Below, one piece after another: positions 1-34,539 of a stretch of DNA of 34,539 bases; positions within the stretch are counted from its first letter, which is position 1, and the number at the start of each line of letters is the position of its first letter. This DNA comes from a virus. Below the pieces are notes generated by a model. The model had not been told where the DNA came from. It saw only the letters and a program-made list of their open reading frames with translations, and ran no database searches. A program made the translations under genes and the position numbers. Where the stretch lies: IMG/VR virus record IMGVR_UViG_3300032291_000769, positions 1 through 34,539 of that record; one strand, given 5' to 3'.

Positions 1-123
1 CCGGCTAGCTACATCCCATTTGCTGACTTTCCCTGCGACCCAGAGCCACACACCAGCCCACTTGAGGCAATGTCAATTTTTGACATCACCCGCGACTTGC
101 AAGAGATCAAGTCGGAAATACTC
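1..123. repeat. Terminal direct repeat (left copy), contig circularisation overlap
   Basis: Bases 1-123 are identical to 34417-34539. The reading frame of the portal gene runs through the right copy and continues in the same frame from the left copy, so the two are the same locus read twice. This is the signature of a circular assembly graph, from a circularly permuted or circular genome. It is much less likely to be a physical terminal repeat, because the copies sit inside an essential gene. The unique genome length is 34,416 bp. Confidence 0.93.
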
Positions 124-12508: not shown

Positions 12509-12873
12509 GCGACCAAGAACATTTGGAGAGACTGCGCCACCATGTGGAGGCCGCATTAGAATACAGTGGAGGCACACATAATTTTGACGATGTTGCTGAG
12601 ATGGTGGAGCAAAACAGATTACAGCTGTGGCCAGCCAAAGACTCAGTGGTATTGACAGAGATCATTGTCTATCCCAGGCTAAAGAATTTGCATTATTTTC
12701 TGGCTGGTGGCGACCTAGATGAACTCTCACGGATGCGACCAATGATCGAATCCTGGGGCAAGTCTGTTGGCTGCACCAGGGTGACTTTGGCAGGCCGCAG
12801 AGGCTGGTCAGAGACATTTTTGAAAGACGAAGGTTACAGCCCCAAATGGGCTGTCCTTGCAAAGGAACTTTAA
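12505..12873 (+). CDS. Small protein with possible GNAT-like fold
   Basis: A 122-aa protein coupled to the nozzle gene by ATGA. It has a helical N-terminus (DQEHLERLRHHVEAALEYSG), a strand pair (VVLTEIIVYPRLKNLHYFLA) and a C-terminal GRRGWSETFLKDEGYSPK. The last stretch resembles the end of GNAT acetyltransferase folds, where an Arg/Gly turn precedes a helix and a GF/GY strand. It lacks a clear Q/RxxGxG/A acetyl-CoA loop, so it may be a structural descendant or a morphogenesis factor. Confidence in the gene is high, in the fold low. Confidence 0.72.
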   Translation: MSDQEHLERLRHHVEAALEYSGGTHNFDDVAEMVEQNRLQLWPAKDSVVLTEIIVYPRLKNLHYFLAGGDLDELSRMRPMIESWGKSVGCTRVTLAGRRGWSETFLKDEGYSPKWAVLAKEL

Positions 12874-12884
12874 GGGGAATAGAT

Positions 12885-13934
12885 ATGGCCACAATCACAA
12901 AAGAAATGCTGCAATATTTGCAGTCACTTGGACTTGGTAACACGCAAATACCAGTCGGTATGGCCGTGCCAAGTTTTGCTCAGAACTTCTACGACTATCA
13001 AGCAATTCCAGCTGGCGCTCAGTACAACCCCAATGTTGTTGGTGGTGATGGTTCACCATACCAGCAGATCATGGCCAGAATGAATTCCCAGAATTACACG
13101 CCAAGCCCTTACAGCGGCTTGCTTGGTCCTACGCCTGCCGGTGGATATAACCCCTATGGCAATTTGGCATCAAATCCATCGGGAAATTATGCTGGTTATG
13201 GCGAAGGCTTTGGCGGCGGCGGTAGTGATGGTGGTGGTAGTGTTAGTGGTGGTGGCGGCCCAAGCGTCGGCACTAGCGGTGGTTTTTCTGGAACAGCTAT
13301 TGGTAATTCAGCCATTGGCGCTGCCATTGGCGCAATTGCTAACGCTATGGAAGGTGTTTCTTTAGGAAACATAGGAAAAGGCACGGCAGTTGGTGTGTCT
13401 GATATGGGCACAATGAGTGACGCTGCTATGGGTGAAGCCATGGGTTTTGCTGCTGCTGATGGTATTGGAATGAGTGGCATGGGTAATAGCGGCGCTGGTG
13501 CTACAGATGGCACTAGTGCTGCTGATGGTGTTGGAATGAGTGGTATGGGCGAGGGTTCTGTTGGCAGTGGTGATGGTGATGGCGGCGATGGTGGTGGAGA
13601 TGGTGGCGCTTCTGGCGGCGGTGGCGGTGGCGCTGCTGGCGATGGCGGCGGAGGTGACGGCGGTGGCGGTGGTGATGGCGGCGGCGGCGGCGGTGGTGGT
13701 GATGGCGGTGGTGGCGGTGGTGATGGCGGTGGAGGCGGCGGTGAAGCTAATGGCGGCCTGATCACTAGCGTTTGGGGTTACAACCCACCTGGTCCAGATG
13801 ATGGCGCCAAGTACTTAGACCTTGGCGAATATGTCATCAGAAAATCCGCAGTCAAAAAATATGGCCGTGGCCTTTTGGACATGATCAATGAAGGCAAAGT
13901 GCCTGCAAAGAAAATCAAATCTCTTTTAGATTAA
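12885..13934 (+). CDS. Glycine-rich virion-module protein with conserved-looking C-terminus
   Basis: A 349-aa protein. I chose the ATG at 12885 after a good AAGGGG site; an upstream in-frame start at 12846 lies inside the previous gene. Residues about 1-108 are ordinary (ITKEMLQYLQSLGLGNTQIP). Residues about 110-285 are low-complexity Gly with Asp, Ser, Ala and Met, including a tract of almost pure Gly/Asp. The last 60 residues are ordered again (YLDLGEYVIRKSAVKKYGRG, then LLDMINEGKVP). It looks like two folded ends joined by a flexible Gly linker. It sits before the internal virion proteins. Its role is unknown. Confidence 0.72.
   Translation: MATITKEMLQYLQSLGLGNTQIPVGMAVPSFAQNFYDYQAIPAGAQYNPNVVGGDGSPYQQIMARMNSQNYTPSPYSGLLGPTPAGGYNPYGNLASNPSGNYAGYGEGFGGGGSDGGGSVSGGGGPSVGTSGGFSGTAIGNSAIGAAIGAIANAMEGVSLGNIGKGTAVGVSDMGTMSDAAMGEAMGFAAADGIGMSGMGNSGAGATDGTSAADGVGMSGMGEGSVGSGDGDGGDGGGDGGASGGGGGGAAGDGGGGDGGGGGDGGGGGGGGDGGGGGGDGGGGGGEANGGLITSVWGYNPPGPDDGAKYLDLGEYVIRKSAVKKYGRGLLDMINEGKVPAKKIKSLLD
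13210..13745. repeat. Low-complexity GGC/GGT/GAT trinucleotide tract
   Basis: Within the Gly-rich gene, about 13555-13745 consists almost only of GGC, GGT, GGA and GAT codons. Shorter Gly-rich blocks lie at about 13210-13260. Such DNA is prone to slippage and assembly error. The frame stays open through the whole tract, so the assembled length is at least in-frame. Confidence 0.85.
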
Positions 13935-25296: not shown

Positions 25297-27486
25297 ATGG
25301 CAACTTACATGAAACCCCAAACTAAAGGAATTTCAGTGCCAATTCTAACTGAAACACCCCAAAACAATGTATTTCAGCAGTCCCAGAACGTGGCCTGCAA
25401 AATCGGCGCTGTAGCCCCTGACGCCGTGTTCTGTACCTTTGCCCTACAGGGCAGCAAAAAGATTCCCTACAAGCGATCTGGCCAAGGTGTGGCTAGGGAT
25501 ACAGACCCGACAGACCTCTACAACGCTGAAGATGTCTGGTCTATGGAAGACGCGCCCCACGGCCAATACCTTGGCTTAGTCCAGCAGCGCCCCATCATCA
25601 GCGCATCAGGGAACTATTTGGTGTGCCTCGATGTGGACATGAAGCACGCATCTGGCCCCACCAATGTGGCCATCCAGCGCATGGCCAAGTATGTCAAGCA
25701 GAACAACATGCTGACCGAGGTCTCAGTCTCTGGCCGTGGCCGTCATGTCTTTCTATGGGTCCAGCCACCCAAAGAATCGGACCAAGTGCTGCCGAAGTAC
25801 AAGCTGGGCGGTGGCCAAGAGCTTGAAGTATTCGGCCTGCCAAACAGTGCAGGCAAGTCAGTGTTACTTTCTGGCAACGCTGTGGTCGGTGAATTCCAAG
25901 AGGCAGTCGATTTGCATGAATTGTTAATGGACTGGGGCATCATCGAGCAGCACCAGCTGCAAGAGCCAGTTACTACAAAAGTAGTTAGCCAATCATTTGA
26001 CTTCACCCAATTGGGTGCAAGGCTTGAAGACAGCGACATTGATCGTGCCGTCAAGGCTTTGCACCACATCAGCCCAGATTGTGACTACGACCAGTGGATC
26101 GAGATTGGCCAAGCGCTGCATACAGAATTCGGGGAAGCTGGCCTCGGCCCATGGATGACATGGTCCATGGCTGGCCAGAAGTTTGCCGGAACTAAAGACA
26201 TTGAGACGCATTGGAAGAGCTTTCACCAGGGCAAGGGTGTTGGCATCGGCACTCTCTTCAAGCACGCCAAGGACTGCGGCTGGGAGCCACCGACAAAGCA
26301 GACCGAGCGCAAGTCGGCGGTGGAAGACTTTGCAGCCGTGATCAGTCAGGCCCAAGGGGATGCGCCAGTGGCCCAAGACGCACCACAAGGCTGGCCAGAG
26401 CGAACTCTGTCCATCGGCCAGATCAAACCCATTCGGTACATGGTCAAAGGCTTTTGGGCGCACAGCTTCATGGTGCTGGCCGGTCAGCCTGGCATAGGCA
26501 AGACCACAGCTGTCATCAGTTTGTGCATGGTCATGGCTGGCCTCAAAGCCAAGGACTGCGAACTCACGGCCACCAAAAAACGCAAGACCATTATCGTGAC
26601 TGAAGACAGTGACCAAGTCGAAAGGACATTAACTGGATATGCGCGGCATTATGGGATTAAGTCACAAGCATTATCAGATTGGTTTGTCATCATCGATGCT
26701 AAGCGATCTAATGTGAAGGATTTACTCATGCTTGCGCATAATGTAATAAACCACACGATTGAGAATATCAGGCCATTATTGGTCCTTGACACGGCCAACG
26801 CCACCATGGATATTGATAATGAGAATGACAACTCAGAGGTCGGTGCTTATATTGCAGCCCTAAAGCAGACCATTTACATCCAGCTGGACACGCCAGTCTG
26901 CATCATCACACACACCAACAAGACCATATCAAAGGCCGACTCAGATGCCACAGCCCGTGGCGCCAGCGCATTCACCGGTGATGCCACATTGACCGGCGTA
27001 CTGTTTGAAGACGAAACCAAGACCCGTTACATGCGCCTGGTTAAAACAAGATACCAGCCCAACTTCAGAGAAATCAAATTCCAATCAGATGTCTTTGCCG
27101 ACACAGTCTTAGATGAAGACGGCGATATCCAAGAGCAAATGGTTCTACTGGTCGTCCCAGAGAAGTCATCAGAGGATGACCGAAGGCAAGCAGCCAATGA
27201 CCGACAAAGCGACAAACGGCAGCAGCAAGTCCAAGACGCGGCAGACGCTGCCTGCAACTTTGTCCAGTCCATCATCAACGCCAAAGGCGCCGTCATCATG
27301 CGCAGAGGCTCAGGCAGGCCATCAGTGCCAAAAGAGCTGGCAGGGATGCACCAGCTGGAGTGGCAAGACATCTACAGCGCAGTGCCCATGGCAGACCAAA
27401 GCTATGCCAGAAGAGCAGTAGGGGCGGCCATCTTTCAGCGCTTCTGTCTGGACCAAGCAAGCTCTGGATGGGTTCAAATAAAGTAA
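25297..27486 (+). CDS. Fused primase-polymerase / PriCT / AAA replicative helicase
   Basis: 729 aa. Residues about 30-215 are a PrimPol (AEP) domain: the acidic pair in VCLDVDMKH (Asp112, Asp114), His150 in SVSGRGRH, and LEVFGLPNSAGKSVLLSG. Residues about 246-330 resemble PriCT-2 (DIDRAVKALHHISPDCDYDQ, WIEIGQALHTEF). From about 372 comes a RecA-like AAA_25 helicase with Walker A GQPGIGKTT (396-404) and a Walker B-like LLVLDTANATMD. It would prime DNA and unwind the fork. ATG 25297 was kept, but GTG 25336 has the better ribosome site (AAAGGA 6 nt upstream) and would remove 13 residues without touching a domain. Confidence 0.87.
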   Translation: MATYMKPQTKGISVPILTETPQNNVFQQSQNVACKIGAVAPDAVFCTFALQGSKKIPYKRSGQGVARDTDPTDLYNAEDVWSMEDAPHGQYLGLVQQRPIISASGNYLVCLDVDMKHASGPTNVAIQRMAKYVKQNNMLTEVSVSGRGRHVFLWVQPPKESDQVLPKYKLGGGQELEVFGLPNSAGKSVLLSGNAVVGEFQEAVDLHELLMDWGIIEQHQLQEPVTTKVVSQSFDFTQLGARLEDSDIDRAVKALHHISPDCDYDQWIEIGQALHTEFGEAGLGPWMTWSMAGQKFAGTKDIETHWKSFHQGKGVGIGTLFKHAKDCGWEPPTKQTERKSAVEDFAAVISQAQGDAPVAQDAPQGWPERTLSIGQIKPIRYMVKGFWAHSFMVLAGQPGIGKTTAVISLCMVMAGLKAKDCELTATKKRKTIIVTEDSDQVERTLTGYARHYGIKSQALSDWFVIIDAKRSNVKDLLMLAHNVINHTIENIRPLLVLDTANATMDIDNENDNSEVGAYIAALKQTIYIQLDTPVCIITHTNKTISKADSDATARGASAFTGDATLTGVLFEDETKTRYMRLVKTRYQPNFREIKFQSDVFADTVLDEDGDIQEQMVLLVVPEKSSEDDRRQAANDRQSDKRQQQVQDAADAACNFVQSIINAKGAVIMRRGSGRPSVPKELAGMHQLEWQDIYSAVPMADQSYARRAVGAAIFQRFCLDQASSGWVQIK

Positions 27487-27662
27487 ACCGGTAAACCGGT
27501 AGTAAACCGGTAGTAAACCGGTATACCGGTTTAGATAAAGGCAGGTCTGTTGGTATAAGTGGGGGTCGTAGACCCACTTATCCACAGGCCAATCTGGTCA
27601 GTTTTGTGATGGTGAAAAGTAAAGCGGTAAAGCGGTAGATTTCCTTTGGTCATACCGGTTTA
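27483..27662. repeat. Iteron cluster GTAAASCGGT with 20-bp perfect palindrome
   Basis: GTAAACCGGT occurs at 27483, 27491, 27502 and 27513. The last copy runs into the perfect palindrome TAAACCGGTATACCGGTTTA at 27514-27533. Variants GTAAAGCGGT lie at 27619 and 27627, and an inverted element ATACCGGTTTA at 27652-27662. One more GTAAAGCGGT is at 27777 in the next gene. The spacing of 8 to 11 bp puts repeats on nearly one face of the helix. This looks like a replication initiator or repressor binding array. Confidence 0.85.
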
Positions 27663-27688
27663 CTTTTGACCCTTTTTGGAGGTTTTAC
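27487..27688. other. Intergenic region with hairpin and DnaA box (origin candidate, left part)
   Basis: Besides the iterons, this 202-bp gap holds a hairpin at 27555-27581: ATAAGT, GG bulge, GGGTC, loop GTA, GACCC, ACTTAT. Overlapping its right arm is a perfect DnaA box TTATCCACA at 27578-27586. Two further DnaA-type boxes lie just inside the next gene, at 27710-27718 (TTATCCACA) and 27721-27729 (TTATTCACA). The ribosome site of the next gene (TTTTTGGAGGTTTTAC) ends the region. No gene was found here. Confidence 0.65.
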
Positions 27689-28033
27689 ATGGTCGAGCAA
27701 ATTGAAAAGTTATCCACAGATTATTCACATTTGGATAAATGGACCGAAGATGAGCGCGTTTTCTGCCACCAGTGCAGTAAAGCGGTAAATGTTGAGCAGC
27801 GCCTGTCCATGCCAGCCGATCAGCTGGAGAGGCATCGCAAGGTCAACGCAAAGCCGCTGCACTGGATGCTGCAAGAGGCCAAGGTCAGAAATGGATGGGC
27901 AGCAGTCAAGTGGACCGAACACCAGTGCGGCCAAACCGGTCTTGGCGCATTCCCAACCGATGTCAAGCACCGATGCCACATGTTCCAAGCCAAACCCTCG
28001 GCAGTAGAATCCGAAGAATGGTGGTTGACTTAA
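27689..28033 (+). CDS. Small Cys-rich (zinc-finger-like) protein
   Basis: 114 aa with a strong GGAGG site. Cys26 and Cys29 (FCHQCSKAVNVEQRL), Cys80 (WTEHQCGQTG) and Cys96 (KHRCHMFQAKP) could bind one zinc ion. The rest is polar, with several Trp. The first codons contain two DnaA boxes and codons 30-33 an iteron, so the gene overlaps the origin-like DNA. It may take part in replication or regulation. No family is recognised. Confidence 0.72.
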   Translation: MVEQIEKLSTDYSHLDKWTEDERVFCHQCSKAVNVEQRLSMPADQLERHRKVNAKPLHWMLQEAKVRNGWAAVKWTEHQCGQTGLGAFPTDVKHRCHMFQAKPSAVESEEWWLT

Positions 28034-28900: not shown

Positions 28901-29212
28901 TTCAGTGGCTTTATACAATGACCATTATGTTAAGTGGATAAGTCGTTATCCACAGAATTAAGTGCATCAAAGTATTACAAGCATAGTTATGCACAGGAAT
29001 CTGTGGATAAAGTTGGCCAAAATCCGTGGATAAGTCGGTGGTGGCCGACTGGCGCCTGCTGGCCGCGACCCCCCCCTTGGCCGGTTTGGCGGGGGCGACA
29101 GTGGCGGCACTAAACACCTACAAAAAAAATTTTTCTAAAAAAATTTTGAGGTAGTTAACAAATAACGCAATTTGTGCAAAAATGTCAACTTCACCAACTA
29201 CACGCACACACC
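28901..29212. other. Intergenic region: DnaA-box cluster and AT-rich tract (origin candidate)
   Basis: No gene is seen. Three perfect TTATNCACA boxes lie at 28946-28954 (plus), 28987-28995 (plus, TTATGCACA) and 29002-29010 (minus, TGTGGATAA). One-mismatch boxes lie at 28933-28941 and 29025-29033. A GC-rich stretch with C8 follows (29068-29076), then an AT-rich tract at 29121-29175 with A8T5 and A7T4 runs, a likely unwinding element. Box cluster plus adjacent AT-rich DNA is the layout of a DnaA-dependent origin. It could also contain the packaging site recognised by the neighbouring small terminase. Confidence 0.75.
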
Positions 29213-33378: not shown

Positions 33379-34539
33379 ATGATTGAAAAAATTACAGAAA
33401 ACTTATCCACCGACATTGCAGCCACTGAGCCAATGGATGACATGGAACTGCAAGCGATCATCACGCAAGACCTGACCGATGCCATCAGCTATGTGGACAG
33501 TGATCTTTCACCCACACGCGCCAAGGGGACTGAGTACTATCGCGGTGATTTATTTGGCAATGAGGTCGAAGGCAACAGCAAGGTGGTGGCTATGGAGGTG
33601 CGGGACACTGTCTCGGCCATGCTGCCAAGCCTGATGCGGGTTTTCTTTAATTCTGAGAATGTTGTGGAATTCAGTCCCAGAGGACCCGAGGACATCAAGA
33701 TGGCCCAGCAGGCCACGGACTACGCCAATTACATTTTCCAAAACGATAACAATGGATTTTTAACGAGCTATGCAATTTTCAAGGATGCATTGGTTCGCAA
33801 GTGCGGCATTGCCAAATTCTGGTGGGAAGACGAAGAGCAAGTCCGAATTGAAGAGTACACCGGCCTAGATGACCAGACGCTAGAGATGCTGATGCAAGAG
33901 CCTGGTGCAGAGGTCAAGATTGTGGTGTCTTATCCAGACCCAGCGATTGATGAAGCGCAACTGACAACTGTTGACCCCACCACTGGCCAGCCCATGGTGA
34001 TGCCTGCACCGATGATCCACGATGTGCAGATCAAGCGCATCACAAAGGATGGCCGGATCAGGATCATGGCCGTGCCACCCGAGGAGCTGCTGCTAGACAG
34101 ACGCGCAAGATCATTTGACGATTCGACCATCATTGCCCACCGGCAGATGGCCACCATGGCTGATTTGTTGGCCATGGGTTATGACCAGGATGAAATTGAA
34201 GAGAACATGTCTTCAACCGACTTGGACAGCAATGATGAGTATTTGGCCCGTCAGCCACTGTCCACAACATTCGGCACAAATGACGCTGCCAACCCAATGA
34301 TGCGCAGAGTGCTTTACATCGAGGCGTATTCTCGCGTTGACTTTGATGGTGATGGCATTGCCGAGCTGCGCAAAGTCTGCTGCATGGGCGGTGGCTATAA
34401 AGTTGTCAGGAATTTGCCGGCTAGCTACATCCCATTTGCTGACTTTCCCTGCGACCCAGAGCCACACACCAGCCCACTTGAGGCAATGTCAATTTTTGAC
34501 ATCACCCGCGACTTGCAAGAGATCAAGTCGGAAATACTC
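33379..34539 (+). CDS. Portal protein, N-terminal part (3' partial; continues at 1-1176)
   Basis: ATG at 33379 with AAAGGCACAGCC upstream. The sequence (MEVRDTVSAMLPSLMRVFFN, FKDALVRKCGIAKFWWEDE, IMAVPPEELLLDRRARSFDD) matches podovirus portals of the P22/SU10 type, where a crown-side N-terminal part leads into the wing and stem. VDFDGDGIAELRKVCCMGGG precedes the 123-bp overlap. In the unique circle the gene spans 33379-34416 and 1-1176 (737 codons plus stop). Confidence 0.9.
   Translation, partial: MIEKITENLSTDIAATEPMDDMELQAIITQDLTDAISYVDSDLSPTRAKGTEYYRGDLFGNEVEGNSKVVAMEVRDTVSAMLPSLMRVFFNSENVVEFSPRGPEDIKMAQQATDYANYIFQNDNNGFLTSYAIFKDALVRKCGIAKFWWEDEEQVRIEEYTGLDDQTLEMLMQEPGAEVKIVVSYPDPAIDEAQLTTVDPTTGQPMVMPAPMIHDVQIKRITKDGRIRIMAVPPEELLLDRRARSFDDSTIIAHRQMATMADLLAMGYDQDEIEENMSSTDLDSNDEYLARQPLSTTFGTNDAANPMMRRVLYIEAYSRVDFDGDGIAELRKVCCMGGGYKVVRNLPASYIPFADFPCDPEPHTSPLEAMSIFDITRDLQEIKSEIL
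34417..34539. repeat. Terminal direct repeat (right copy), contig circularisation overlap
   Basis: Identical to bases 1-123. The copy is in the same reading frame of the portal gene as the left one, showing that sequence was assembled past the join. It should be removed once when the circle is closed. Confidence 0.93.

Follow-up and report, generated by a model that had tools for sequence, protein, structure and literature searches.

Iterons behind a phage PrimPol-helicase gene co-vary with the C-terminal domain of its product and probably mark a replication origin

The window analysed here, the whole stretch of 34,539 nucleotides, is a freshwater phage genome that is circular at 34,416 bp, its ends being identical over 123 bp (window 1-123 = 34417-34539; circular or terminally redundant). 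Recognisable genes encode a SU10-type capsid protein, TerS, a primase-helicase, an Enc34-type single-strand binding protein, an SNF2-type helicase and a DUF2800 exonuclease, and a low-complexity glycine-rich protein with long GGGD-type runs occupies 12846-13934. The repeats described below lie directly behind the primase-helicase gene (Table 1), with TerS and TerL in the neighbourhood, the TerS gene 0.9 kb downstream of the arrays; the small HTH protein of the region is of the 67-aa Cro/C1 type. An Rfam search of the window gave no match, and a centromere or partition site was set aside because the proteins searched, a subset of those encoded, included no member of a partition family.

The PrimPol-helicase matches Pfam PriCT_2 (7e-19, residues 253-324), AAA_25 (1e-17, residues 373-543) and, weakly, DnaB/KaiC, as well as PHROG primase families, and by reading of its sequence carries the AEP-like motifs LDVDMK and SGRGRH. 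It has no Pfam match to an SF3/D5-type helicase family, SF3 being the helicase type of P4 alpha. Neither the C-terminal domain nor the whole protein gave a useful result when searched by sequence against the PDB, and no solved RepA was matched; weak pentatricopeptide matches to residues 178-213 in a search of this kind were judged spurious. None of its plasmid homologues is full-length, the matches being centred on the PriCT-2 region.

We find eight exact matches to GTAAASCGGT in the window, where the original prediction had counted seven or more, and every one of them lies within 27483-27786; dinucleotide shuffles give an expectation of 0.02, and none of 100 shuffles reached eight. These sites were recast as 8-bp units, TAAASCGG, the first of which starts at the primase-helicase stop codon (27484-27486), while array 2 lies immediately upstream of the 114-aa gene and its ribosome site. 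The palindrome is indeed perfect, and is single-copy in the window even when three mismatches are allowed. The bulged hairpin folds as single-stranded DNA with an energy of -13.3 kcal/mol (z = -4.6), and the three DnaA boxes claimed at the outset prove to be two exact ones and one with a single mismatch. Units, palindrome, hairpin and these boxes together span 27483-27787. Genome-wide there are four exact DnaA boxes against 0.22 expected, all within 1.4 kb.

Table 1. Features of the PrimPol-helicase locus and the region downstream, in window coordinates.
Feature	Position	Strand	Remarks
PrimPol-helicase	25297..27486	+	AEP-like primase region, PriCT_2, AAA_25/RepA-type RecA-fold helicase, C-terminal domain
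C-terminal domain, proposed iteron-binding	27196..27483	+	residues 634-729; RRGSGRP loop
Array 1, direct units TAAACCGG	27484, 27492, 27503, 27514	+	spacing 8, 11, 11
Array 1, inverted unit CCGGTTTA	27526	+	strand given is that of array 1, overall 27484..27533
20-bp perfect palindrome TAAACCGGTATACCGGTTTA	27514..27533		last direct and inverted unit of array 1
Bulged hairpin	27544..27590	+	core stem 27555-27563 with 27573-27581; between the arrays
Exact DnaA box TTATCCACA	27578..27586	+	on hairpin 3' arm
Array 2: direct TAAAGCGG at 27620, 27628; inverted CCGGTTTA at 27655	27620..27662	+	
114-aa protein	27689..28033	+	zinc-ribbon-like (weak, below Pfam cut-off); 5' end contains putative origin elements
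Exact DnaA box TTATCCACA at 27710, one-mismatch box TTATTCACA at 27721	27710..27729	+	within 114-aa gene
In-gene unit TAAAGCGG	27778..27785	+	within 114-aa coding sequence; type follows arrays in relatives
Second DnaA cluster	28946..29010		exact convergent boxes 28946 (+), 29002 (-); one-mismatch box 28987
AT-rich stretch	29116..29165		9 G/C per 50; lowest-GC stretch, 1.3 kb from iterons

Relatives came from protein-level scanning of viral contigs, from a single scan of genome contigs and from one phage record; they comprise 117 other loci with a readable downstream region, two of which end within or just after array 1. The layout directly behind the primase-helicase gene recurs in all readable relatives: four direct units spaced 8, 11 and 11 bp plus one inverted unit, a hairpin with a DnaA box on its 3' arm, a small second array, a DnaA box after it and usually one further unit within the next gene. 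This conservation strongly supports the original proposal that plasmid-like iterons stand beside a predicted initiator gene, the repeats being present next to the homologous primase genes where they were looked for. The units fall into type A, TAAASCGG(T) with TAAACAGG variants; type B, TAATSCGG(T); type C, TAATRCGG(A); and type D, which is CGRRGATA-like. The 8-11-11 spacing of array 1 is found in all 83 measurable A/B/C loci, the window included, one locus (L033) carrying one extra 11-bp unit, and the type D strings have the identical spacing with an unrelated unit. Between lineages the unit sequence switches in nearly all copies at once, and within type A individual copies differ (TAAACCGG, TAAAGCGG, TAAACAGG). 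That the geometry stays fixed as one unit sequence gives way to another points to an initiator complex of defined architecture.

The hairpin is likewise conserved as a structure. Among ten stem pairs counted in the A/B/C loci, three show compensatory changes and none a one-sided change, a signal that exceeds both shuffled and slid controls and supports selection on pairing between the arms; whether the pairing acts as single-stranded DNA, RNA or a protein-bound dyad cannot be told from it. Type D loci have a hairpin of the same kind with another stem sequence and one to two exact DnaA boxes. A terminator is ruled out, as no T run follows the hairpin.

A second DnaA region (28934-29170) separates TerS from the small gene that follows. 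Where the flanks of A/B/C relatives could be read, most have exact boxes at this place as well, many of them two convergent exact boxes 56 bp apart, together with an AT-rich stretch, which is a possible unwinding element or promoter region. The original prediction had joined this DnaA-rich region, 1.2 kb downstream, to the iteron region as a composite origin. Its recurrence in A/B/C relatives favours that part of the proposal, but in type D relatives the second region has no exact DnaA box, while the primase gene is still followed by iterons, a hairpin and DnaA boxes; the composite origin is thus plausible, and it is only by inference that the second cluster belongs to the origin. The same recurrence of exact boxes and low GC at 28.93-29.17 kb is what could be said for placing the true origin there and having the primase-helicase bind the units for copy number or expression, an arrangement that we consider unlikely given the type D loci and the conserved DnaA boxes within the iteron region itself.

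Which protein follows the unit type was asked of types A and B, these being the closest types with genomes otherwise intermixed. The PrimPol-helicase has 14 residues fixed between A and B, all between positions 634 and 723, whereas there are none in the 114-aa protein, VRR-NUC, TerS, the HTH protein, SNF2 or the exonuclease, and one in TerL. Mapped on the C-terminal domain tree, the unit type changes three times, the minimum for four types, compared with 22-23 changes on the trees for PrimPol and for PriCT-2 and 8-9 for the helicase; with looser labels (L217, L218 and L286 assigned to B, L219 to A), the domain tree has four changes against a minimum of three. For the neighbouring proteins, where the minimum is two, we count 5 changes for the 114-aa protein, 19 for VRR-NUC, 13 for TerS, 18 for HTH, 21 for SNF2 and 20 for the exonuclease. 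Among the proteins tested, which are encoded within 5 kb, unit type is therefore tracked only by the PrimPol-helicase, through its C-terminal ~95-100 residues. Of the three binders originally put forward, this co-inheritance supports the PrimPol-helicase as the candidate and narrows the predicted contact to its C-terminal ~95 residues.

The other two candidates, the 114-aa Cys protein and the HTH protein, and TerS with them, are argued against by versions 98-100% identical that occur with different unit types. These versions and the frequent unit-type changes on the HTH and 114-aa trees also tell against the units being operator sites, at which a phage repressor or activator (e.g., the 67-aa HTH or the 114-aa protein) would control the 114-aa operon. 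Array 2 does immediately precede the ribosome site of that gene, and a dimeric regulator would suit the palindrome and inverted units, but a sigma-70-like promoter was looked for at the arrays and not found, and DnaA boxes and a structured hairpin accompanying array 1 would be unusual for an operator; we regard this explanation as quite improbable. Packaging signals can contain repeated direct sites and the terminase genes are close by, but a TerS recognition site (pac or cosB) is very improbable with TerS up to 98-99% identical across unit types, without fixed differences, and with so many unit-type changes on its tree.

Returning to recognition by the PrimPol-helicase, we find that nucleotides fixed between A and B are confined to 27196-27631 (codon 634 to array 2), with none outside, so that the exchanged block reaches from the C-terminal domain through array 1 and the hairpin as far as the direct units of array 2. 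The top A-B identity is 79% for the C-terminal domain and 94-100% for every other protein, and members of type B carry helicases of two kinds (about 60-80% alike) but share their C-terminal domain (95%) and their unit type. As judged from these sequences, repeats and domain appear to be exchanged together between phages, in lock-and-key fashion.

Since the C-terminal domain adjoins array 1, linkage accounts for part of their association, but several observations argue for an association that exceeds linkage. Past the exchanged block, no base follows type better than 27659, the variable base of the inverted unit. The in-gene unit reads TAAT in none of 31 copies of type A, 9 of 11 of type B and 25 of 25 of type C, although it is missing in 12 of 43 type A loci. 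The residues encoded by the in-gene unit shift with unit type (SKAV, SNAV, ANAE, ESRI), so that the motif in the DNA apparently restricts the sequence of the 114-aa protein. All 46 sequences with TAAA units, the divergent L219 among them, have Ser at residue 672, and all 38 sequences with TAAT units have either Pro or Ala there; L219 has type A units and Ser672 as in type A, but a domain not closely grouped with type A. In type D the loop is without GRP and the unit without TAAW. The L219 and type D points are suggestive only, because three of ~100 positions separate the TAAA from the TAAT domains and independent lineages are few.

A confident model of the last 90 residues (AF2 core pLDDT 89.8, pTM 0.81) has the order helix-strand-strand-helix-helix-strand and a winged-helix-like topology. 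Structure comparison gives weak matches throughout: several are winged helices, with FadR best at Z 3.8, the ScpA winged helix at 2.6 and MCM3 likewise at 2.6, but glutaredoxins score about as well (3.4). Foldseek with two models of the domain found no significant PDB match, and in BFVD only a relative of the same protein; Pfam and PHROGs gave nothing above noise for this domain. The modelled fold is likely, but not established, to be a winged helix.

Taken together, the eight units against 0.02 expected, the conserved layout, the co-inheritance with the C-terminal domain and the hairpin covariation lead us to regard 27484-27786 as probably the replication origin, or that part of it where the initiator binds, with the C-terminal domain of the PrimPol-helicase as the recognising element. 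The four exact DnaA boxes within 1.4 kb add to this reading, as do the precedents of SaPI Rep, Cch2, P4 alpha and pRN1 and a minimum of the detrended GC skew at 27304; the range of the skew is not significant (block-shuffle p = 0.15), and it was dropped as proof of an origin. Besides the skew, we count against the reading that no AT-rich stretch lies within 27484-27786, that the fold match is weak, that linkage contributes, and that some type A loci lack the in-gene unit and L219 joins type A units to a domain unlike that of type A.

We infer that copies of the PrimPol-helicase would dock on the 8-bp units through their C-terminal domains. With a pitch of 11 bp, about one helical turn, protomers on array 1 would share one face of the DNA, finishing as a head-to-head pair on the palindrome, and array 2 and the in-gene unit would be held by the same domain and could loop to pair with array 1. 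The bound protein, with host DnaA as a helper occupying the boxes of the hairpin arm and of the next gene, would then open the DNA, and the exposed hairpin may act as an entry or priming site. At an active origin of this kind, the RecA-type helicase would load and the PrimPol region would synthesise the first primer.

The locus has features of an iteron origin, with direct repeats at the initiator stop codon and conserved DnaA boxes, and parts of its organisation are known from other systems. In SaPI Rep and SCC Cch2, a C-terminal domain of the helicase binds iterons directly downstream of its own gene (PMC7581432), which is also where the iterons lie here; those helicases are MCM-like or D5-like and the SCC primase is separate (PMC7581432), whereas here AAA_25, of RecA fold, is fused to the primase. 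P4 alpha unites primase, helicase and origin-repeat binding by a C-terminal winged helix in one polypeptide (PMC4234260), as is predicted here, but its primase is of the Toprim type, in contrast to the AEP-like region, PriCT_2 and AAA_25 found here with a conserved hairpin and DnaA boxes. RSF1010 (IncQ) has RepA, RepB' and RepC, an oriV with iterons, ssi hairpins and a stem-loop-using primase (PMC4234260); iterons and the RecA-type helicase class (here by the AAA_25 match) are shared, and the conserved, covarying hairpin is a candidate counterpart of the ssi hairpins, but IncQ uses three separate proteins and the phage one polypeptide. No RepC homology and no separate RepC-like gene beside the arrays was found, the tracking domain being inside the primase-helicase. 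The pRN1 ORF904 and BIP-1/BPP-1 proteins have a PrimPol (BIP-1 also PriCT_2), a C-terminal winged helix and a stem-loop downstream (PMC4234260), resembling the AEP-like motifs and the stem-loop directly behind the gene here; they have an SF3 helicase and no reported origin iterons (PMC4234260), whereas here a RecA-type helicase accompanies strict arrays. By analogy, the function would resemble that of SaPI Rep, Cch2 and P4 alpha, with the helicase type setting the PrimPol-helicase apart from them. We found no open-access paper on iterons beside a PriCT-2/AAA_25 primase-helicase.

It is possible, if somewhat short of probable, that these phages represent a new self-contained class of replicon, with primase, RecA-type helicase and origin recognition in one polypeptide, in which the domain and the two arrays form an exchangeable specificity cassette and residue 672, in an AT-hook-like RRG(S/P/A)GRP loop, reads base 4 of the unit. 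Uncultivated freshwater phages gain a predicted origin and initiator, and the existence of four or more unit types, matched by domains on an otherwise mostly shared protein, amounts to a natural experiment in the evolution of initiator specificity. Exchange of domain and site would let co-resident related phages avoid or cause cross-initiation, comparable to plasmid incompatibility groups.

Two further observations concern the relatives. A block of its own, the helicase region (residues ~331-615), is likewise swapped between related phages, as seen in L049-L052 compared with L029, L037, L040 and L044. L217 and L218 combine a B-like unit with a diverged C-terminal domain; L217 (CAINTF010000009.1) is a contig binned as Acidimicrobium whose phage primase is 99% identical to that of the IMG/VR contig L218, and is probably phage sequence in the bin, or else a hint to the host.
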